Shown here piece by piece: positions 29,548-39,623 of a stretch of 43,780 bases of DNA. Position 1 is the first letter of the stretch, and the number at the start of each line of letters is the position of its first letter. The position numbers were made by a program, and so were the translations under genes. The notes beneath the pieces were generated by a model. The model had not been told where the DNA came from and did not search any database. It saw only the letters and a list, made by a program, of their open reading frames with translations. Source of the DNA: Methanobacteriota archaeon (GTDB lineage Archaea > Halobacteriota > Methanosarcinia > Methanosarcinales > Methanosarcinaceae); NCBI GenBank assembly GCA_030054735.1, contig JASGVX010000107.1:1-43780 (forward strand), written 5' to 3'.

Positions 29548-30264
29548 CTGTATTCATCCCATTCTGGTTGTTATTTCCAGAGAGATGCGACCCCTTTAAG
29601 GTGGAGCTAAGAACCGAATACCCTATATCCTTATCGTTTATATATTTTAGGATTACTTCTTTTTAACCGGAGTTTATACTTTCATACATAAAACAATATA
29701 ATAGGCATTTTTTTATAGGGTCTAATAAAAAATTAATTATCTTGGCAAGTAATTCCAAAAAGTTTAATACAAAATAGAGATATATTAAACTGATTAAGTT
29801 ATAGTCCTTATTGTGAAAAATGAAGACTTTTGCGATTATAGAGTCTAAATAATAATAACAAAAATAAAATACAGTAAAACGCTTACCCTCCCTACAAGAA
29901 GATAACAAATCACATAAATAATTATCAAGCCCTTAGAAAAGCAATTCAATATTAGGCGACAACAAGACTTGAATTAGGCGAGGTTTAGAACTTAGTTAAT
30001 TTTTATATACTTGAATTTATCGTAGCCAGGAGCTTTTATTTCCCAATATCTTTCAAACTCCGGTTTAAATATTTATATTGAAGTATGTTTTTTGGGTCCC
30101 GATATCTTTCTTATCGATCAACCAGTAAAGAAAAGAGCGGGTCCAAACCTTTTGGAATAAGGGCGGTTTTAAGGATTACCGTAAAAAACGCTTTGTTCCA
30201 GAAGCAGAATGATATCACTAATTGTTTTATATTAATTAATTGTAATAGATAGAGACGAAGTTAT
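29548..30264. other. Gene-free spacer before the biosynthetic cluster
   Basis: About 700 AT-rich bases. An 81-codon frame on the minus strand (29663-29908) is low-complexity, and I do not accept it. The stretch 30125-30250 stays open in one frame without a start and may be a decayed fragment. TATA-like TTAATTTTTATATACTTG is near 29996-30013. No strong ribosome-binding site precedes 30265. Confidence 0.4.
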
Positions 30265-30939
30265 ATGCACAGCGAAAATTTGATACTCTCTTCTATTTCT
30301 CTGGAAAACACTCTTCACCTGTGGGAAGAGAATGATATACTGATCTTTTTTATTGATCTGGATAGTTATGATGTCTTAAGTACGGAGTATCTCAATAATA
30401 CCGAAAAAGAAGAACTGGGAAAACTTCAAACACTATATTTCCAAAAAAGATTTGTTATTTCCAGGATGGTTTTGAAATCTATTCTATGTATTCTACTTAA
30501 AATGGAGTCTAGCCTGGACATCTCCACTTATAAAGACAGTTACGGAAAAGTTCATATACTCGGCCATGAGGACCTGCATATCTGTATTTCCTACTCTGAA
30601 AACATTGTAGCTCTTGCAATATCAAAGGTGAAGATTGGTATTGACGTCGAAATTAAAAGGCCGCTTGCATTAAAAAATACTTTTAAATACTTCCATAAAA
30701 CAGCATTATGCGGAGACAAATCAGCAAATGATGCTGATCTATTAAAGACATGGACTATAAAAGAGGCATATTGTAAGTTTTTTAACAAAACTATGCTTTC
30801 CTCTCTAAGTAAAGACCCTGACTTCAATAACGCTTCCTACTTTAACTTTTTACTGGACGACAAATATGTCTTTTCTATTGTTACTGAGTCGGATCAGTAC
30901 GCAATTAATATAAGCCGTCTTGAGAAAATCAATGATTAG
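30265..30939 (+). CDS. 4'-Phosphopantetheinyl transferase, Sfp type
   Basis: 224 residues, the Sfp-type length. It transfers phosphopantetheine from coenzyme A to the Ser of a carrier protein. Motifs: LGKLQTLYFQKRFVISRMVLK (residues about 51-71), the P-x-x-YGKV-like DSYGKVHI (91-98), ICISYSENIVALAIS (with His replaced by Ile-Cys in the usual FNLSHS position), IGIDVEI with the Mg-binding Asp127 and Glu129, and WTIKEAYCKF with Glu167 (W-x-x-K-E-A-x-x-K). Its evident partner is the carrier protein 343 bases downstream, from which it is separated by a MITE. Such enzymes are uncommon in archaea. Confidence 0.85.
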   Translation: MHSENLILSSISLENTLHLWEENDILIFFIDLDSYDVLSTEYLNNTEKEELGKLQTLYFQKRFVISRMVLKSILCILLKMESSLDISTYKDSYGKVHILGHEDLHICISYSENIVALAISKVKIGIDVEIKRPLALKNTFKYFHKTALCGDKSANDADLLKTWTIKEAYCKFFNKTMLSSLSKDPDFNNASYFNFLLDDKYVFSIVTESDQYAINISRLEKIND

Positions 30940-30967
30940 GGCAGGTTTGTCCACAAGGTCGGCTAAA

Positions 30968-31094
30968 CTTAGGAATAGTTTAAATATGACTTCAAGTTTT
31001 TACTTTGCTAATGGCTCTATAATTGCATCCCTCAATATCATTAATGATAATAAGGGGTATAAGTGTTTGAATTTAAATTTTCACCATTCCTTAA
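30968..31094. mobile_element. MITE family A, copy 3 (between transferase and carrier protein)
   Basis: 127 bp, from CTTAGGAATAGTTTAAA to TTTCACCATTCCTTAA, in the opposite orientation to copy 1 at 10797. The two align over the whole length with scattered differences. It is non-coding and inserted within the biosynthetic cluster. Confidence 0.8.
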
Positions 31095-31282
31095 TTCAAA
31101 TATCAGTAACTGATACATATAGGCTTTTTTCCAGCTCTTTTTCTGGAGATATTTATCTACATAAAACACTTTCAAATTATTTATATACTTGTATAACATA
31201 ATTACTCATGGGTCTTTCAATTAATGGGTAAGTGTATGTTACTAGCAGTTGTTAATCTAATTAAGTAAAGGGGTAAGATTGT

Positions 31283-31528
31283 ATGGAACAGATCAAAAAT
31301 GATATCCTAGATTACTTAAAGAACAATTCATTTATGGAGAGAGAAAAGACTATTGATGATAGTGATTCTCTTACTCAGAACGGGATACTAGATTCTATAG
31401 GTTTGCTTGAGTTGATAGACTATATCTGTGAACGATATTCTATCGAAATTCCTGAAGATATGTTGACTCCAGAGAATTTCGATTCTCTGCGTGGAATCAC
31501 CAACCTGATAACCAGACTGGCGAAGTGA
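31283..31528 (+). CDS. Acyl/peptidyl carrier protein
   Basis: 81 residues with the four-helix carrier-protein pattern. The phosphopantetheine site is Ser38 in the DSIGLLELIDYI segment (residues 37-48). Helix III follows, and VxIPxxxLTPENFDS-type sequence (IEIPEDMLTPENFDSLRGI, about 54-72) matches ACP helix II-III. It is acidic overall. AAAGGGG precedes the ATG. The next gene, an AMP-forming ligase, overlaps its stop, so ligase and carrier are translated together and probably work together. Free-standing carrier proteins are rare in archaea. Confidence 0.9.
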   Translation: MEQIKNDILDYLKNNSFMEREKTIDDSDSLTQNGILDSIGLLELIDYICERYSIEIPEDMLTPENFDSLRGITNLITRLAK

Positions 31529-33012
31529 AGGGCATGAGAATTGATGCTTATATCCTTGAGCACGCCAGAAAAACTCCTCACCAGATTGCTCTTGAAGAAG
31601 GTAAAAGGTCCATTTCTTACAGCTGCCTCGATGAAGATATAAATATAGTTGCTTCATCTCTTTCTGACTTTGATCACTGCAAATTTGCAATACTGGCTGA
31701 GTCCGGCATACAGTACATAAAAATACTTATGGCAGTATACCGGTCAGGCAATATTGCAATACCCCTACCAATCGAATTGCCAGGGTTAAGCCTTGAGAGA
31801 ATCCTTGATTCTGCATGCATTAATAACATAATTGCAACGAAAAAACTGTATTCGAGGTTCGGAGACGGATTTTTTGAGAGGTTTGGAACAGTGATTGTTG
31901 TTTCAGACAATACTGCAGTAGAGGCTCTAAGCAAAAGAGTGATACTCGAAAGAAACGATCCCGAACTGAGGCTTGTGCTTTATACCTCAGGTACAACAGG
32001 GACTCCTAAAGGAGTTATGCTGAGCGACAAAAATCTGGTCTCAAATGCCAGATCAATAACCGAGGTTCTCAGTCTAACTTCAAAAGACAAAGCCGCCCTG
32101 GTAATCTCTCCTCATCACGCTTTTGGAAATTCGATAATTAATTCACACATTATGGCTGGAAGCTCGATAAGTATCGGGACAATGAATTTCATAGGTCCTG
32201 TTTTCAGTCTCATTGAATCCGGAGTATCTATATTCTATGGAGTGCCCAGTACATATCGTATCCTTCTCAAATACCCGGAAAGATTCAAAAAAGCTTTTAC
32301 AAATGTCAGAACCGCCGCATCTGCTGGCGGAGCCATGGATAGGGTTATTGTACGGGCTATAAAGGAATTTAGTCCAAACACAGAGATTCTGCCAATGTAC
32401 GGCCAGACAGAAGCTACAGCAAGGCTTGCCTACCTGCCTTCAGAAGATGTGGATGAATTTATAGATACAATAGGAAAGGCGATTCCTGGGGTCACACTGG
32501 ATGTTTTTGATTCGGAAAACTGGCCTTTAGAGCCCGGTATCACAGGTGAGCTTGTTGCAAAAGGGGATAATATCCTTCTTGGTTACCTGAACGATGATGC
32601 TGCAACTGAAAAAATAATTATTGACGGGTGGCTACATACAGGTGATCTGGCACAGAAACTTCAGGGCGGGTATATCAGGCTTCTCGGGCGAAAGGACGAT
32701 CTCATAAAAGTAGGCGATCATCGGGTTAACCCGAGAGAGGTTGAAAAAGAGATTGAGATGAACAACGAGGTTTCCAACGTTTTTGTTGTGCCTGTGTCCC
32801 ATGAGCTTATGGGTAATGCAATCAGCCTCATGGTGATACCAAATCAGGAAACTGACGTCGAGAAAATTTTTGCTTTTTGCAGGAAGAACCTGCCAGGCTA
32901 TCTGTACCCAAGGGAGATCCTCTTCATTGACCATCTTCCACTGAGCGAGAATGGAAAAATATCCAACAGATCCATAATAGAGGAGTACCAGCATGTCAAA
33001 GCTAGTATGTAA
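31525..33012 (+). CDS. AMP-forming ligase loading the carrier protein (ANL superfamily)
   Basis: 495 residues with all core ANL motifs. LYTSGTTGTPKGVML (153-167) is the phosphate loop. MYGQTEATA (291-299), GWLHTGDL (368-375), and LLGRKDDLIKVGDHRVNPREVE (386-407) carry the adenylate contacts and hinge. NGKISN (476-481) supplies the catalytic Lys478. The start shown is a GTG overlapping the carrier stop by 4 bases; ATG at 31534 is an alternative. It should activate a carboxylic or amino acid as adenylate and load it on the carrier protein. The substrate is not readable by eye. It overlaps the downstream PP-loop gene by 20 bases. Confidence 0.9.
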   Translation: MKGMRIDAYILEHARKTPHQIALEEGKRSISYSCLDEDINIVASSLSDFDHCKFAILAESGIQYIKILMAVYRSGNIAIPLPIELPGLSLERILDSACINNIIATKKLYSRFGDGFFERFGTVIVVSDNTAVEALSKRVILERNDPELRLVLYTSGTTGTPKGVMLSDKNLVSNARSITEVLSLTSKDKAALVISPHHAFGNSIINSHIMAGSSISIGTMNFIGPVFSLIESGVSIFYGVPSTYRILLKYPERFKKAFTNVRTAASAGGAMDRVIVRAIKEFSPNTEILPMYGQTEATARLAYLPSEDVDEFIDTIGKAIPGVTLDVFDSENWPLEPGITGELVAKGDNILLGYLNDDAATEKIIIDGWLHTGDLAQKLQGGYIRLLGRKDDLIKVGDHRVNPREVEKEIEMNNEVSNVFVVPVSHELMGNAISLMVIPNQETDVEKIFAFCRKNLPGYLYPREILFIDHLPLSENGKISNRSIIEEYQHVKASM

Positions 33013-34024
33013 AAGGTGTGTTCTGGATTCTGATATTCCAGGAATAGAAATCAATAAAGAAACCGGTTTCTGCCACTTCTGTGAGACGTATGTACCAATC
33101 TCTTCACAGGAAAAGGAGCAGTACCTTAACAGGATTGAAGAACTTTTTAAAAAATACAGCGGCAGGGGCAATTATGATGTGATATTTGCACTTTCAGGGG
33201 GAAAGGACTCTTCATACACACTTTATAAACTCAAAAAAGATTATCCCTTCCTGAAAACACTTGCTGTCCAGTTTGATAACGGGTTCATTTCAGACTATGC
33301 CATAATAAATGCAAAGAAAATATGTGAAATTTCTGGATGCGACTATTTTAAGCTGACAATAGAAAAAAAAGTCCTGTACGAGCTCTTTAGAAAAGCAGCT
33401 GAGTCTTATGATGAGTTTCCGAAATTTGCCAAATACAGGGCAAGTGACATCTGCAATATCTGTATCAGCATAATAAAACAGAAGCTGATAGAACAGGCAA
33501 TAGTCCAGAAAGCGCCTTTTATTGTATTTGCTTTTACAGCAGGTCAATCGCCAAATCCCATTATCAACCTGCCATCTAACTTTATACAATGGTCAAGAAA
33601 CCTTTTTGAAAAGCAGCTTCAAAAAATCGGAGTTGATGACAGGGATGAGCAGTTCATTATTAAAAACGAGGTCATTAAAAATATAGGTGATATTGCTCCC
33701 TCCATTCTGCACCCGCTTTGCCTGTGGGAATACAGTGAGGACAAAGTTCTTGAGACAATAGTTCAGCTAGGATGGAAGCCTCCTGCCCTCGAGGATAGCA
33801 ATTCAACAAATTGTACATTGAATTCTTTTGCATGCTATAACCATCTGGAAAAGTATGGTTTCCATCCATATACCTTTGACATAGCAGGACTTGTCCGAAG
33901 TGGAGAAATGTCAAGGGAAGACGGGCTGGAAAAACTTCAACAGGAACTTTCACAGCCACTGATAGATGATGCTGCAAAGAAACTTGATATCAAGATAAAT
34001 AAGCCTCAAAAAATCCTGCTTTAA
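32993..34024 (+). CDS. PP-loop (AANH) ATP-pyrophosphatase, N-acetyl sugar amidotransferase-like
   Basis: 343 residues. Residues 6-30 have two Cys pairs (CKRC and CHFC), probably a zinc knuckle. Residues 64-74 form the PP-loop, IFALSGGKDSS, which binds ATP to activate a carbonyl by adenylation. SDICNICISIIKQK (residues 149-162) gives another Cys pair. The layout resembles WbpG/PseA-type amidotransferases that convert an acetyl amide to an acetamidine, and other AANH enzymes that insert N or S. The start overlaps the ligase gene by 20 bases, showing tight coupling with ligase and carrier. The C-terminal part (HPLCLWEYSEDKVLETI, GLVRSGEMSREDGLEKL) is typical of the family. The nucleophile donor is unknown. 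Confidence 0.8.
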   Translation: MSKLVCKRCVLDSDIPGIEINKETGFCHFCETYVPISSQEKEQYLNRIEELFKKYSGRGNYDVIFALSGGKDSSYTLYKLKKDYPFLKTLAVQFDNGFISDYAIINAKKICEISGCDYFKLTIEKKVLYELFRKAAESYDEFPKFAKYRASDICNICISIIKQKLIEQAIVQKAPFIVFAFTAGQSPNPIINLPSNFIQWSRNLFEKQLQKIGVDDRDEQFIIKNEVIKNIGDIAPSILHPLCLWEYSEDKVLETIVQLGWKPPALEDSNSTNCTLNSFACYNHLEKYGFHPYTFDIAGLVRSGEMSREDGLEKLQQELSQPLIDDAAKKLDIKINKPQKILL

Positions 34025-34181
34025 CTTTAAGCAGTAATTCTCAAAAATGAACTGTTTAAGTAAAGGATCAGAAAGATGAATAAATGGTCAAATAAACAGT
34101 TACCTACATTTAGATGTTTAACAGTTATTTTAGAGTATAAGCCATAACAAATAATATATATAATCTATGAGGGGGGTTAGT

Positions 34182-35252
34182 ATGCAGATTGTCGGAAGTA
34201 GATTAGCGAAAACTACCGAGAGTCACGTAAAGAGTTTATCAAAGAACGGTACCGGAAGACCAATGGATTATAGCAATGTGCAGATTCTGAACGAACTGAA
34301 CAGCGATATTGATGAGCTTGCCGAAATGATCAAGGGTTTTATACGAGACCAGGTCACCGGTTTTAAGAAAAAAGGGGTGGTTCTGGGGGTTTCGGGAGGT
34401 ATAGATTCAGCTGTAGCCCTTACACTATGTGTACAGGAGTTTGGCAAAGAAAACGTGTACGGTCTCCTTATCCCTGAAAAAGAATCAGCTCCTTCAAGCA
34501 AAGCCCTGGGAGCAGAAATCTGTGAAAACCTGGGGGTTTCATATGAGGAGGTCCCTATTTCTCCAATCATTGAGGCTCTCGGAATTTATGAGAAAAAAGA
34601 GCAGATTATTAAAAGGACCTGCCCGGAATACGATTCTGGAGTACACAAAACCTCACTTGTGCTGCCTGACTTCCTTAACCAGGGCCTTTTGAATGTTCCA
34701 CATATAAGATTAATAAAAGATGAAAAAACGGTTGCCAGGTGCAGGTTGAAAGCAAACGATTATCTGGAGTTGGTCAGCCTGCAGAATGTCAAGCAGAGGT
34801 CCAGAATGATAATTCAGTATATGTACGCTGAAAAACTGAATTATGCTGTTTGCGGCACAACCAACAAAACTGAACTTATGCTGGGACAGTTTGTAAAGTA
34901 CGGGGACGGCGGTGTGGACTTCGAACCTTTTGCAGACTGCTATAAAACCCAGATTTATGCTCTGGCAAAATACCTCAAGGTAAATGAGGAAATTATAAAA
35001 CGCCCTCCAAGTGCCGACACCTGGAGTCATTATACATCAGATGAGGAATTCTACTGGCGCATGCCTATACACATCATGGACCAGTTGCTCTACGCTCAGG
35101 AACATAAACTGCCTGTAGAGGTTGCTGAAAAGAACACGGGACTGCCCAGAGATACCATAGAAAAGGCCTGGAGGCATATCGACAAGGTAAGAGATGCTAC
35201 TGATTATGTACGTATTGCTCCGCCTGTTTATTATATGAGTTGCAAAAAGTAA
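34182..35252 (+). CDS. NAD-synthase-like PP-loop amidotransferase, divergent
   Basis: 356 residues from ATG 34182, which has GGGGGG five bases upstream. ATG 34167 and ATG 34263 are alternatives. ATATATATAAT at 34154-34164 is a TATA box very close to the start. The PP-loop is GVSGGIDSAVAL. NadE-type motifs follow: QRSRMIIQYMYAE, VCGTTNKTELMLGQFVKYGDGG and FADCYKTQIYALAKYL. The conserved PSAxLxPxQTDE of NadE becomes PPSADTWSHYTSDEE, and an unusual insert (CPEYDSGVHKTSLVL) lies between. No glutaminase domain is present. It could be a genuine ammonia-dependent NAD synthase, but position and changes favour an amide- or thioamide-forming role (inference). Confidence 0.78.
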   Translation: MQIVGSRLAKTTESHVKSLSKNGTGRPMDYSNVQILNELNSDIDELAEMIKGFIRDQVTGFKKKGVVLGVSGGIDSAVALTLCVQEFGKENVYGLLIPEKESAPSSKALGAEICENLGVSYEEVPISPIIEALGIYEKKEQIIKRTCPEYDSGVHKTSLVLPDFLNQGLLNVPHIRLIKDEKTVARCRLKANDYLELVSLQNVKQRSRMIIQYMYAEKLNYAVCGTTNKTELMLGQFVKYGDGGVDFEPFADCYKTQIYALAKYLKVNEEIIKRPPSADTWSHYTSDEEFYWRMPIHIMDQLLYAQEHKLPVEVAEKNTGLPRDTIEKAWRHIDKVRDATDYVRIAPPVYYMSCKK

Positions 35253-35398
35253 GTTCTTACTTCAAACATCTGCAGGCAGATACTGCAAGCACGATTTGGG
35301 TGTTTTCACTCTCAAAGACTAACGAAGTTAAAGTCTAAAGAGTTCAAAAACAGCGCCCAGGGCCAATAATATCTGATTTAGAATTCCGGAGGATAAGC

Positions 35399-36532
35399 AT
35401 GAACACCACAGTCTCCATTGTACGTTGTCCCGACTACTCAAACGTAAAAAGTGCAATTAAAGAGGCGCTTGCCCTTATAGGCGGACTTGAGAGTATTATT
35501 ACTCCCGGGAAGCGCGTGCTGCTCAAACCCAATGTGCTTTCAATTCGGGCTCCGGAAGATGCTGTAACCACTCATCCTGCGGTGGTATCTGCAATGTGCG
35601 AGCTGGTTAAGGAAGCTGGCGGAATCCCGCTTATAGGAGATGGATCGGGAATTGTAAAACCGGGTTCAACCTCGACTTCGGAAGCTTTTCGTGCTTCAGG
35701 AATAGAAGCTGCCGCATCGGCATGTGGGGCAGAGCTTATTAATTTCGAGACGTCGGGTTATACAGAAGTCTCTGTTCCTGCAGCCAGGCAGTTTCCGCGC
35801 ATTTACATAGCAAAGGCAGTCCTTGAGGCCGATGTTGTAATCTCGCTTCCGAAACTCAAAACGCATGAACTGACCCTCTATACCGGTGCTGTCAAAAACT
35901 TTTTTGGGGCAGTGCCCCAGAAATTCAGAAAGCAGGCACATGCTCTGGAAGACCGTGAGCGCTTTGGAGAAGCTGTGGTTGATATCTACTCAATAGTTAA
36001 ACCTCACCTTGCCGTCATGGATGGAGTGCTTGGGATGGAGGGAAACGGCCCTGCTAATGGAACGCCCATTCTTTCAGGAGTGGTCATGGCAAGTTACGAT
36101 TGCGTAGCCCTTGACATGGTTGCTTCCGAACTGATAGGGATCGATCCGTTAAAAGTGCCGACAAACAAAGCTGCGCTTTCAAGAGGATTCGGGATCAGTC
36201 AGCCGGAGGTTTCAGGAGTAGCTCTGAAGGATGTGCGTCTCAGGTTTAAAATGCCCGAAGGTGGAGTCACCGCAATGGTGCCTTCTTTTCTTATGAGAAT
36301 CCTCAGGAAACATTTGACTGTAAAGCCTTTCATCAATACTTCAAACTGTGCACTTTGTAAAGCCTGCATTATGAACTGTTCAGCACATGCAATTGAGGAA
36401 ATGGGCAATATGCTCAAAATCAATCAGGAAAAGTGTATCCAGTGTTACTGCTGCCGTGAACTCTGCCCTGAAGACGCGGTAGAAATAAAGAAATCATTAC
36501 TGCTGAAGATTGTGACCAGAAGCAGAACATAA
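35399..36532 (+). CDS. DUF362 protein with C-terminal 2[4Fe-4S] domain
   Basis: 377 residues. Residues 1 to about 300 are DUF362 (KRVLLKPNVLSIRAPEDAVTTHPAVV, PLIGDGSGIVKPG, DVVISLPKLKTHELTLYTGAVKNFFG, MDGVLGMEGNGPANG). Residues about 315-362 have two ferredoxin motifs, CALCKACIMNCSA and CIQCYCCRELCPEDA. The family is found widely in anaerobes and is often an electron-transfer or ligand-binding partner; its reaction is not established. GGAGGATAAGC precedes the ATG. It lies 146 bases after the NadE-like gene, and I include it as a likely cluster member. Confidence 0.88.
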   Translation: MNTTVSIVRCPDYSNVKSAIKEALALIGGLESIITPGKRVLLKPNVLSIRAPEDAVTTHPAVVSAMCELVKEAGGIPLIGDGSGIVKPGSTSTSEAFRASGIEAAASACGAELINFETSGYTEVSVPAARQFPRIYIAKAVLEADVVISLPKLKTHELTLYTGAVKNFFGAVPQKFRKQAHALEDRERFGEAVVDIYSIVKPHLAVMDGVLGMEGNGPANGTPILSGVVMASYDCVALDMVASELIGIDPLKVPTNKAALSRGFGISQPEVSGVALKDVRLRFKMPEGGVTAMVPSFLMRILRKHLTVKPFINTSNCALCKACIMNCSAHAIEEMGNMLKINQEKCIQCYCCRELCPEDAVEIKKSLLLKIVTRSRT

Positions 36533-36630
36533 GAAAATTACCAGATAAAAGGAGACAGGCAGAGAATAAGATTCTTCAAAAATTATAGCGTTATGAATTT
36601 CAATCAGCATTACTGGTTGTCAATTTATCT

Positions 36631-36720
36631 GACCCATAACAAATCTGACCCATAACAAATTTGACCCATAACAAATTTGACCCATAACAAATCTGACCCA
36701 TAACAAATCTGACCCATAAA
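36631..36720. repeat. 16-bp tandem repeat, about 5.6 copies
   Basis: GACCCATAACAAAT(C/T)T repeats with an exact 16-base period, starting at 36631, 36647, 36663, 36679, 36695 and 36711 (the last partial). It sits in the 223-base gap before the acyltransferase gene. The copies differ only at one C/T position, pointing to recent expansion or selection. Confidence 0.9.
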
Positions 36721-36803
36721 TAACTATAGGAAATATATTTATCGGTGGAAAATTATTGGTTATAAGTGTCAGGCGTTTTTCACCGCAAAACGGGGGCATT
36801 ACC

Positions 36804-37352
36804 GTGACTTCCATAGTATCCAATAGAGACAAAGTAACTTTTGCTGAAGTGGCTGATCATTATCATAGCAATAAACTCATCTTTGGAATAAAGTACTTAA
36901 AGAACTGGTTTCTGGAACGTCTTGCTTCGTGGTTTCCGGTTCCTTCATGGAGAGCGAAATTTCACAGAATGCGAGGCGTGAATCTCGGAAAAAACGTTTA
37001 TGTCGGCTACGATGTGGTTTTTGACAGGCTTCACCCAGAGATGATTACAGTGGGAGATTACTCTGAAATAGGAGACCGCTGCATCCTCTCTGCTCATTCC
37101 AGAGGCAGCCTGACCACAAGACAGGCATATCCGAGAACCATAGATCCCATAAAAATAGGACGTGGAGTTTCTGTAAATCCTGGGTGTATAATTACTCAGG
37201 GAGTCGAGATAGGGGATAACTCGATAATTGGCATCGGATCCGTAGTTACCCGTGATATATCTCCAAACAGCCTTGCGCTGGGTTATCCGGCTCGAGTTGT
37301 TAAAAAGCTTGAAGGCGTGGGTGAACTTCAAAACAGTTTTGACGATTCTTAA
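36804..37352 (+). CDS. Hexapeptide-repeat (left-handed beta-helix) acyltransferase
   Basis: 182 residues from the GTG at 36804, chosen because GGGGG stands eight bases upstream; a TTG at 36756 extends the frame by 16 codons. After a helical N-terminus the LbH repeats begin (LGKNVYVGYDVVFDRL, ITVGDYSEIGDRC, IKIGRGVSVNPGCIITQGVEIGDNSIIGIGSVVTRDI) and close with NSLALGYPARVVKKL, the standard WbbJ/NodL/maltose-acetyltransferase ending. Such trimeric enzymes acetylate sugars or other small molecules using acetyl-CoA. It could tailor the product of the upstream cluster or act on surface glycans. Confidence 0.85.
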   Translation: MTSIVSNRDKVTFAEVADHYHSNKLIFGIKYLKNWFLERLASWFPVPSWRAKFHRMRGVNLGKNVYVGYDVVFDRLHPEMITVGDYSEIGDRCILSAHSRGSLTTRQAYPRTIDPIKIGRGVSVNPGCIITQGVEIGDNSIIGIGSVVTRDISPNSLALGYPARVVKKLEGVGELQNSFDDS

Positions 37353-37680
37353 CATTTTTTATTTTTCGTATTTTTTTGTTTTTTCTATTTTTCATGGCTT
37401 TTTAATTATAGGGTATCTATGTTATATGATTGAGTATTTTGTATTATTTCATCCAGTGTGATAATTGAGTTTGTTTTTCCACTTTATACAGTCTGGTTCA
37501 TGTTTTGTGCGTCAGATTAAAAGAAAAAAAGTGAAATATCAATATTTGCAGTAATTTCTAAATAATAACAAGCAGTTAATCAGGGAGCACCTGATTATGT
37601 CTTTGTTATTAATTTTGTTTCCCACATAATTAAATTTTTTATCTAATTTATTTTGTTTAATCCCTTAAGCGGATTAAAAA
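37353..37680. other. Convergent intergenic region with a nested hairpin
   Basis: About 330 bases between the acyltransferase and the minus-strand membrane gene. A 47-base nested hairpin lies at 37564-37610: AATAACAA/TTGTTATT outside and AATCAGG/CCTGATT inside. T-runs follow on both strands, so it may be a two-way terminator. The remainder is AT-rich. Confidence 0.45.
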
Positions 37681-38268
37681 TTATTTTTCAGTTCTGTAAC
37701 CGAACTCAAATCCAAATTTGTTCAAAGCGAATAGCGCCATTAATATTACAATGAAAACGCAGAAAACGAATGCAATTGATTCTATTAGATAGCGAAACAG
37801 GCTGCCAGCTTCTGCAAATCCTGTATCCATTATTGTGAATACACTGATGGGTTTATTATACAGTGGGTATAGATAAGCAAAGCCCCCTTCGGCAATATCA
37901 TCCAGGAGCAGGTGTGTAAGAAAAGCAGACTCTGCAAAGATTGCCATATATATTGCTTTATTAAATTCCCTGTATGCAGCATATCCGACAAACCCTCCAA
38001 AAAGTATTGCAGTGAAACTGAACAGCAGTGAATGTGTAGGAATCGAGCCAACCCAGCAGTGCTCAAGGGTGTTGTTTATGAGTATATTATATACAACCAT
38101 CATATCCGGGAACAAAGTGCATAAGCCGCCTACGAATACCAGTAACAGCAGCTTTCTGGCATCCCTGAAAGAGAGTTCTCTTCTAGAGAGTGGACTAATT
38201 AAAGCATATAGAGCTGCCGCGCAGATACAACAAAGGAAGAACAGAACATGTACAACAGGATATGGCAT
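37681..38268 (-). CDS. DUF457/YdjM-like membrane-bound metal-dependent hydrolase
   Basis: 195 residues with five predicted TM segments (near residues 5-25, 38-60, 80-100, 105-125 and 160-185). Conserved His and Asp residues of the family are visible: PYPVVHVLF at the N-terminus, LFPDMMVVYN (FPD), PTHSLLFS (HS), and HLLLDDIAEGG (H-x-x-x-D). Together they suggest a metal site within the membrane. YdjM-like proteins are regulated by the SOS response in bacteria, but the reaction is unknown. It is monocistronic. Confidence 0.75.
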   Translation of the reverse strand: MPYPVVHVLFFLCCICAAALYALISPLSRRELSFRDARKLLLLVFVGGLCTLFPDMMVVYNILINNTLEHCWVGSIPTHSLLFSFTAILFGGFVGYAAYREFNKAIYMAIFAESAFLTHLLLDDIAEGGFAYLYPLYNKPISVFTIMDTGFAEAGSLFRYLIESIAFVFCVFIVILMALFALNKFGFEFGYRTEK

Positions 38269-38397
38269 GAGAAAACCTTTTTTAATAATTCTTTAGACTT
38301 TATTGTTCGATCTTCTATAAAATTTTAATCCTATGTCTGAACTTATTTTGAACTGACTTATTTAAAATAATATGGATATAAGCTCAGGCATATGTGC

Positions 38398-39459
38398 TCA
38401 TAAAGGAATAAGCTCTACGAGCAACCCGTCTTCAAATGGGTGTCTCTCGACAATGAAAAGCTTTGTCCCTGAGGGCTCAAGTTCTTCTTTAAGCCCATAC
38501 TTAAGGTCTTCAAGCACCCACCAGGCTATCTCGATTTTCCCTTCTTTTACTTCAAACAGTTCTTCAGGAACTTCGACTTCTTTGAGTATTTCTTCAGCAA
38601 GCGCCTGATCTCCCCCATTGATAACCCCGTAAATAAGAGTTCCGTCTTCCGTAATCTCATCAAACTCTCTTGCGGTGTTTTTTGCAATTCTCTGAAACCT
38701 TTTGCGCAACTGGACTGCATCCTTATAGGTTGAAGAACAGAAGTGCACTCTTTTGCAAGCACGGAAAGCGTTCTCAGCATGTACGCAGGAATCTACAGCA
38801 GCACACGAGGTATCTGATTCAAGGGAAAAACCGTTTTTCAGAAGCGCTTCAGAGTTATTATCGGAAAATTCCAGTTCGTTGAGGTTGAGGAAAATATCCA
38901 TTTCCTCTACAAAGGCTGCGACCTTCTCTACCCCTTCTAGAGAGGGTATTTCAATTCCTGCTTCAATTCCAAGGTTCTTTGCATTTTTCAGGGCAGCTGC
39001 ATAGGGGCTCTGCCTGAGTTCTCCCCAGGCCGACTGTGGAGGATGGAGACGGATCTCGTCAAGGCCCGCTTCTGCGAGTCTTTCCAGAATTTCTCTTTCC
39101 GGAGCAAGAGATGTGTAAAGATGAATATGATGCTCTTGCCCAAAAGAGGACTTGAGCAGGCGGATGTAGTACAGGACTCTATCTACTTTTACTAATGGTT
39201 CCCCGCCAGTTATCCCTGTCCCCAGAGCGTCCATAAGCTCAGCTTCTTTAAGCAGGTCCTCATCGTTTTTTACATGCCTTTCATTTGCAAAAACAAGGTC
39301 TTTTCCACGTCTTTCGTTGGAAAGCGGGCAGTAAAAACAGCTTTTAGGGCAGAGCCCGCTTACAAAGAGCACCATTTTGGCACCCTGCTGGCAGAGTTTG
39401 CAGCCTTCTGAAAGGTAACTGCAAAAAGAGCCTGTTTCATCTTTGGTGAAATTCTCCAT
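38398..39459 (-). CDS. Radical SAM protein (archaeal, PflA-like)
   Basis: 353 residues. An N-terminal Cys set, CSYLSEGCKLCQQGAK (residues about 13-28), precedes the radical SAM cluster motif CPKSCFYCPL (about 37-46; CxxxCxxC). GITGGEPLVK near 83 is the SAM-binding GGEP motif; HIHLYTSLAPEREIL and LDEIRLHPP are later barrel strands. The extra Cys could bind zinc or a second cluster. A C-terminal part (residues about 245-353, EEILKEVEVPEELFEV) resembles a small add-on domain. It is divergent from the ferredoxin gene, which begins about 165 bases away and may donate electrons. Confidence 0.8.
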   Translation of the reverse strand: MENFTKDETGSFCSYLSEGCKLCQQGAKMVLFVSGLCPKSCFYCPLSNERRGKDLVFANERHVKNDEDLLKEAELMDALGTGITGGEPLVKVDRVLYYIRLLKSSFGQEHHIHLYTSLAPEREILERLAEAGLDEIRLHPPQSAWGELRQSPYAAALKNAKNLGIEAGIEIPSLEGVEKVAAFVEEMDIFLNLNELEFSDNNSEALLKNGFSLESDTSCAAVDSCVHAENAFRACKRVHFCSSTYKDAVQLRKRFQRIAKNTAREFDEITEDGTLIYGVINGGDQALAEEILKEVEVPEELFEVKEGKIEIAWWVLEDLKYGLKEELEPSGTKLFIVERHPFEDGLLVELIPL

Positions 39460-39623
39460 TCTGAGACTGCATATCCTTTTGTCCTATATAAGGCTTGTTT
39501 CCTTATGCTTTCCCAGGGTGCTGATGATACAGGATCCCAATGAAAAGGAGTTTTTCAGTTCAGGTTTAGAAATTGATTCCTGTTCAGAAATTAATATATC
39601 TATCAGCTTCCAAAGATTCACTG

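Follow-up and report, generated by a model that had tools for sequence, protein, structure and literature searches.

What does an archaeon assemble on a small, free-standing carrier protein? Archaea seldom use carrier-protein chemistry, and the question is raised by a compact locus at positions 30265-36532 of a 43,780-nt stretch of DNA, referred to here as the window, from a Methanobacteriota archaeon (assembly GCA_030054735.1, contig JASGVX010000107.1). The first five genes of this locus, encoding a phosphopantetheinyl transferase (PPTase), a carrier protein, an adenylate-forming ligase, an AANH/PP-loop enzyme and a paralogue of NAD synthetase, are a real conserved module. We propose that the module is carrier-based (thiotemplated) and would make first an amide and then a thioamide, without being the closthioamide pathway itself; we put this proposal at slightly less than an even chance. 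The open reading frame (ORF) listing of the window places all six genes named by an earlier, sequence-only reading of this DNA on the plus strand, at the coordinates that it had given. The five genes of the module are the following.

30265..30939, plus strand: PPT, Sfp-type 4'-phosphopantetheinyl transferase (PF01648, 26.1 bits), predicted activator of the carrier
31283..31528, plus strand: ACP, free-standing carrier protein of 81 aa with Ser38 in a DSIG motif (PF00550, 24.5 bits)
31525..33012, plus strand: LIG, ANL adenylate-forming ligase (PF00501 and PF13193), predicted to load an acid on ACP
32993..34024, plus strand: AANH/PP-loop enzyme with an SGGKDS motif, a tetracysteine and a cysteine triad, proposed sulfur insertase acting on an ACP-bound amide
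34167..35252 (start possibly 34185), plus strand: NADE, NAD-synthetase paralogue of the PRK00876 subfamily (NF002048), proposed amide synthetase

The stop of ACP overlaps the start of LIG by 4 bp (31525-31528), and LIG and AANH overlap by 20 bp (32993-33012). Profile searches support the family assignments weakly for the PPTase and the carrier and strongly for the others.

Is this neighbourhood more than an accident? The order ACP-LIG-AANH-NADE is kept in ~40 stretches from Methanosarcinaceae genomes, with PPT mostly upstream, and the idea that the genes form one conserved module is thus upheld, as they are found together rather than scattered. An AANH orthologue is present in 18 of the 42 sampled Methanosarcinaceae genomes, and exactly those 18 carry a PRK00876-type NadE, a match that yields no probability because the genomes are kin and not independent samples. 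Because the order recurs in ~40 loci and the presence of AANH and NadE is matched, we reject a chance neighbourhood. That the genes are mere neighbours and the NadE copy a second NAD synthase is hardly credible: the ATP site retained by NADE speaks for it, but the matched presence with AANH and the linkage across orders and in bacteria speak against it, together with the large insert in NADE and a canonical NadE elsewhere in the genome. Two or three cassette copies occur in some genomes (two in genome G075), and the secondary ones tend to be without PPT, a gene that usually sits just upstream of ACP and in the genus labelled g12 and some others lies elsewhere in the genome. The sequence-only reading had called for a search in other taxa; this search returned Methanomicrobiales and one Thermoplasmata metagenome-assembled genome (MAG), in which the cassette genes are clustered with order and strand changed, and alphaproteobacteria in a form with AsnB, but no Clostridia, the closthioamide enzyme CtaC itself not being among the sequences compared. 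Only ACP, AANH and NADE are seen within the 19 kb of locus L149, and no PPT is seen in L140. No phage copies of the cassette were found. A few copies appear to be decaying or reduced: DUF362 is fragmented in L068 and missing from L070, the ligase is truncated and NADE absent in L071, and NADE is absent in L076.

Further genes accompany the module in some lineages. A FabG-like short-chain dehydrogenase/reductase gene lies directly 3' of NADE in several genera, and in the window two accessory genes follow.

35399..36532, plus strand: DUF362 protein with a 2[4Fe-4S] tail (PF04015, E=1e-61), accessory
~36786-37352 (start approximate), plus strand: WcaF-like hexapeptide-repeat acyltransferase (PF00132), accessory, possible transferase

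As neighbours of the module, both are restricted to Methanosarcina and certain sister genera. The DUF362 protein had been proposed to assist the pathway; it is missing beside most non-Methanosarcina copies, and its lineage-restricted occurrence rules it out as a general core partner. The acyltransferase (NF007797, 66 bits, under the cut-off) sits just past the end of the locus, downstream of the module in Methanosarcina and inverted in genus g12.

The carrier end of the module has the expected equipment. A thiotemplated thioamide pathway requires a carrier protein and an available PPTase, and by sequence both are present. The PPTase reaches 26.1 bits against a PF01648 cut-off of 25 and keeps the GIDVE and WTIKEAYCK motifs, while Ser38 in the DSIG motif of the carrier is invariant across 40 loci; the closest NCBIfam models of the carrier are the AmcB and OlsHI acyl carrier proteins, all under cut-off. 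The ligase matches PF00501 with E=3e-52 and shares R300 of a TE-x3-R motif with the ligases of the bacterial cassettes. In the alignment PHHAFGN replaces the Asp of amino-acid adenylation domains, and this suggests a carboxylic acid, not an alpha-amino acid, as the substrate; a more precise prediction from the ligase sequence gave nothing convincing. A D-alanylation (Dlt) system was considered and rejected, as the DltA and DltC models score 149 versus 560 bits and 21 versus 68 bits, respectively, both under cut-off. Elsewhere in the same genome (contig G000:C89, ~30052-39581) a frame of 3008 aa, in which PP-binding matches occur three times, resembles a nonribosomal peptide synthetase (NRPS), and a separate, stronger PPTase match lies nearby.

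The NAD-synthetase paralogue is clearly assigned to its subfamily, scoring 492 bits with NF002048/PRK00876 against a cut-off of 313. It keeps an intact PP-loop and the GTxNKTE motif, and differs from canonical NadE by an insert of ~50 aa between the two halves; the Sinorhizobium and Azospirillum copies also have an insert at this place. The sequence-only reading depended on this gene not being the genome's only NAD synthase, and it is not: a canonical 255-aa NadE is encoded on another contig (G000:C39), which rules out a housekeeping role for NADE. The structure model of NADE, with a predicted local distance difference test (pLDDT) score of 67.8, is too poor to read the substrate site.

It is the AANH enzyme that brings sulfur into the argument. 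The protein has no Pfam match, and its best NCBIfam model, TIGR03573, scores 125.7 bits, below the cut-off of 203.2. In addition to SGGKDS at residues 68-73, it carries a zinc-type tetracysteine (C6/C9/C27/C30), which is a motif of sugar amidotransferases (PMC10607449), and an Fe-S-type triad (C154/C157/C274) that is invariant in 16 cassette AANHs. The cluster cysteines of CtaC, the enzyme of the closthioamide pathway, are C154/C157/C284 (PMC6772006) and the cluster ligands of the archaeal tRNA thiolase NcsA are C142/C145/C233 (PMC10067955). The comparison with closthioamide, made in the sequence-only reading, holds for the AANH motif, since the triad sits at nearly the CtaC positions, and fails for the partners, as no CtaD-, CtaG- or CtaJ-type genes are found among the cassette ORFs. 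In a profile alignment with NcsA, C154-x2-C157 falls on the NcsA CxxC with 98% probability when related triad-bearing proteins are in the query profile, whereas the alignment made with cassette sequences alone ended before the CxxC. The AANH has the three-cysteine pattern found at the [4Fe-4S] site of sulfur insertases, a pattern absent from typical sugar amidotransferases fed by HisH/HisF. A maximum-likelihood tree unites the cassette AANHs in one clade (support 99/99) and requires the triad to have changed three times; under midpoint rooting, which is arbitrary, an ancestral triad lost three times would fit.

How might these proteins work together? From the gene set, its linkage, the motifs, the cysteine pattern and the second NadE that we observe, we infer each catalytic step and the order of the steps. 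The PPTase would turn apo-ACP into holo-ACP, on which the ligase, after adenylating a carboxylic acid, would load the acid as a thioester. The NadE paralogue would then adenylate another carboxylate group of the substrate and, with ammonia, convert it to an amide. In the next step, AANH would activate the amide with ATP, and a [4Fe-4S] cluster held by the three cysteines would carry the sulfide that replaces the amide oxygen, as CtaC does on its carrier. Finally, a lineage-specific transferase, of hexapeptide or GNAT type, may pass the acyl group on to an acceptor molecule, for which an amino sugar in a surface glycan is a candidate. Such a scheme shares with the closthioamide pathway (PMC6772006) carrier-based assembly without a large NRPS, an AANH PP-loop enzyme with three cluster cysteines and anaerobic hosts, but the archaeal module has a NadE paralogue and its AANH also has the zinc tetracysteine. 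The tetracysteine, the PP-loop and the overall fold are those of WbpG, WbuX and LpNASAT (8wex, PMC10607449), from which the cassette AANH is set apart by its extra triad, a sub-cut-off score, a separate clade and the lack of a HisH/HisF of its own. With the tRNA thiolases TtuA and NcsA and [4Fe-4S] LarE the enzyme shares the PP-loop and a CxxC...C cluster site, whereas those enzymes modify RNA or a nucleotide cofactor instead of acids bound to a carrier.

Bacterial relatives throw light on the module from two sides. AANH relatives occur in an NRPS region of Roseovarius and Pseudohalocynthiibacter plasmids. In Roseovarius the AANH domain, with a cassette-type triad, interrupts an adenylation domain after its AMP-binding core and before its C-terminal subdomain is complete, with a peptidyl carrier protein next, an arrangement that fits the overlap of the ligase and AANH genes in the archaeal cassette; because its branch is long (1.62), the place of this domain in the tree is unsure. 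On the Roseovarius pelagicus plasmid (L104, 6424-14469) the interrupted adenylation domain adjoins flippase and sugar genes, and L105 is similar. A second kind of relative is an operon on Sinorhizobium, Mesorhizobium, Azospirillum and Roseateles plasmids, where asnB, a carrier protein gene, a ligase gene and a PRK00876 nadE stand together. It resembles the archaeal module as a compact operon with a carrier, an ANL ligase and a PRK00876 NadE, and double-GNAT genes lie beside several bacterial copies; it differs in having AsnB, not AANH, and no PPTase is seen in it. In the Sinorhizobium AsnB, Met is followed by the glutaminase Cys, and the synthase domain is complete. A role in making an osmolyte of the N-acetylglutaminylglutamine amide (NAGGN) type was rejected, as the bacterial AsnB resembles the NAGGN amidotransferase under cut-off only and supporting neighbours are lacking. 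No description of the archaeal module or of the rhizobial operon was found in the literature searched, most subscription journals lying outside its scope.

The main rival of the amide-then-thioamide proposal is a chemistry of nitrogen only, in which both PP-loop enzymes would give ammonia to the carrier-bound acid, yielding a carboxamide first and an amidine or second amide next; AANH would work as sugar amidotransferases do, with a structural metal or cluster bound by its extra cysteines. We regard this as a serious contender with roughly a third of the probability on its side. It gains from several points that weigh against sulfur. The bacterial sister operons have AsnB, a nitrogen-transfer enzyme, where the archaeal cassette has AANH; if the two do the same job, that job is nitrogen transfer, and the sulfur chemistry is something that we infer. 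Locus L151, from a Helicobacteraceae MAG, combines a triad-bearing AANH with AsnB-like genes (recognised by the AsnB N-terminus only) in a single cluster, and AANH and AsnB therefore need not be alternatives. TIGR03573 and the AlphaFold model of AANH (pLDDT 85.5) also favour nitrogen: in the model the nearest fold is that of an N-acetyl sugar amidotransferase, LpNASAT (8wex), followed by TtuA and [4Fe-4S] LarE. Moreover, the likeness to CtaC is one of published residue positions and not of aligned sequences, the third cysteine, C274, has its counterpart by position only and adjoins residues 269-271, which are modelled at pLDDT<50, and the cassette contains no sulfur-relay gene, although the closthioamide cluster has none either. 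Against nitrogen alone stands the three-cysteine pattern of known sulfur insertases, and the source of ammonia bears on the same question. In the DNA flanking 28 representative cassette loci there is a single HisH match, in L149, a Euryarchaeota MAG, and none in the other 27. In L149 (9001-12170) the cassette AANH is followed by a second, triad-less AANH that abuts HisH, with HisF next, so that HisH lies 1452 bp from the cassette AANH with the triad-less one between. In the glycan-type cluster of L151 (8968-16089) a triad-less AANH precedes HisH and HisF, and the triad-bearing AANH is ~5 kb away. HisH is a common, not universal, partner of triad-less TIGR03573-type copies, being within 1.6 kb of 10 of 23, and near none of nine triad-bearing copies outside the window if the L149 HisH is assigned to its triad-less neighbour (Fisher p=0.03), or near one of nine by raw distance (Fisher p=0.11); as the compared proteins are related, the association of triad absence with HisH proximity is suggestive only. 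In genus g12 a triad-bearing AANH paralogue (L165) has Gfo/Idh, DegT and acetyltransferase genes close by, a set similar to a 2,3-diacetamido sugar pathway, with no HisH/HisF in the DNA stretch examined; the fragmentary L170 of the same genus is a locus of this kind.

Where would the product go? Two answers are compatible with either chemistry. The carrier may act as an acyl donor for surface glycans, with a GNAT or hexapeptide acyltransferase moving its acyl group, amidated or thioamidated, to an amino sugar; this reading is one of destination, its probability excludes no other reading, and we consider it quite conceivable, if somewhat on the doubtful side. A glycan acceptor is made plausible by the GT2/GT4, WecB/UDP-GlcNAc 2-epimerase-, UDP-sugar-dehydrogenase-, Gfo/Idh-, DegT- and flippase-type genes near several archaeal copies, by an O-antigen ligase and glycosyltransferases in the neighbourhood of the Azospirillum one, and by double-GNAT proteins adjoining bacterial and some archaeal copies. 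No glycosyltransferase family is among the 25 commonest of 80 control ORFs, a small, unblinded control drawn mostly from the same genomes. On the other hand, the similarity of the GNATs between groups is weak (E ~1e-9 to 1e-3, in a tiny set) and the surroundings of the main Methanosarcina locus offer only UppS and the acyltransferase. Release of a free small molecule, such as a metallophore, signal or antimicrobial, in the manner of closthioamide seems unlikely: the two or three cassette copies of some genomes and the analogy to CtaC pathways (PMC6772006) invite the idea, but no thioesterase, condensation enzyme, transporter or resistance gene is seen conserved with the module. Methanophenazine biosynthesis was dropped, since genera believed to use methanophenazine appear to lack the module. 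Returning to the thioamide proposal, its most extended version is in our view improbable: the amide would come from a repurposed NAD synthetase, a CtaC-like Fe-S enzyme would carry out the thionation on the carrier, and the thioamide acyl group would enter surface glycans; no description of such a thioamide-acyl modification of the cell surface was found in the papers searchable.

What would a thioamide-making module imply? CtaC was reported as the first NRP (nonribosomal peptide) thioamide synthetase (PMC6772006), and its type of chemistry would extend to methanogens. A NadE subfamily and an AANH clade hitherto without a function would acquire one, and both would be tied to an undescribed operon of plant-associated bacteria.

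A separate feature of the window is a tandem array (36627-36719) in which the 16-bp unit ATCTGACCCATAACAA is repeated in 5.8 copies; it lies between the DUF362 gene and the acyltransferase gene.

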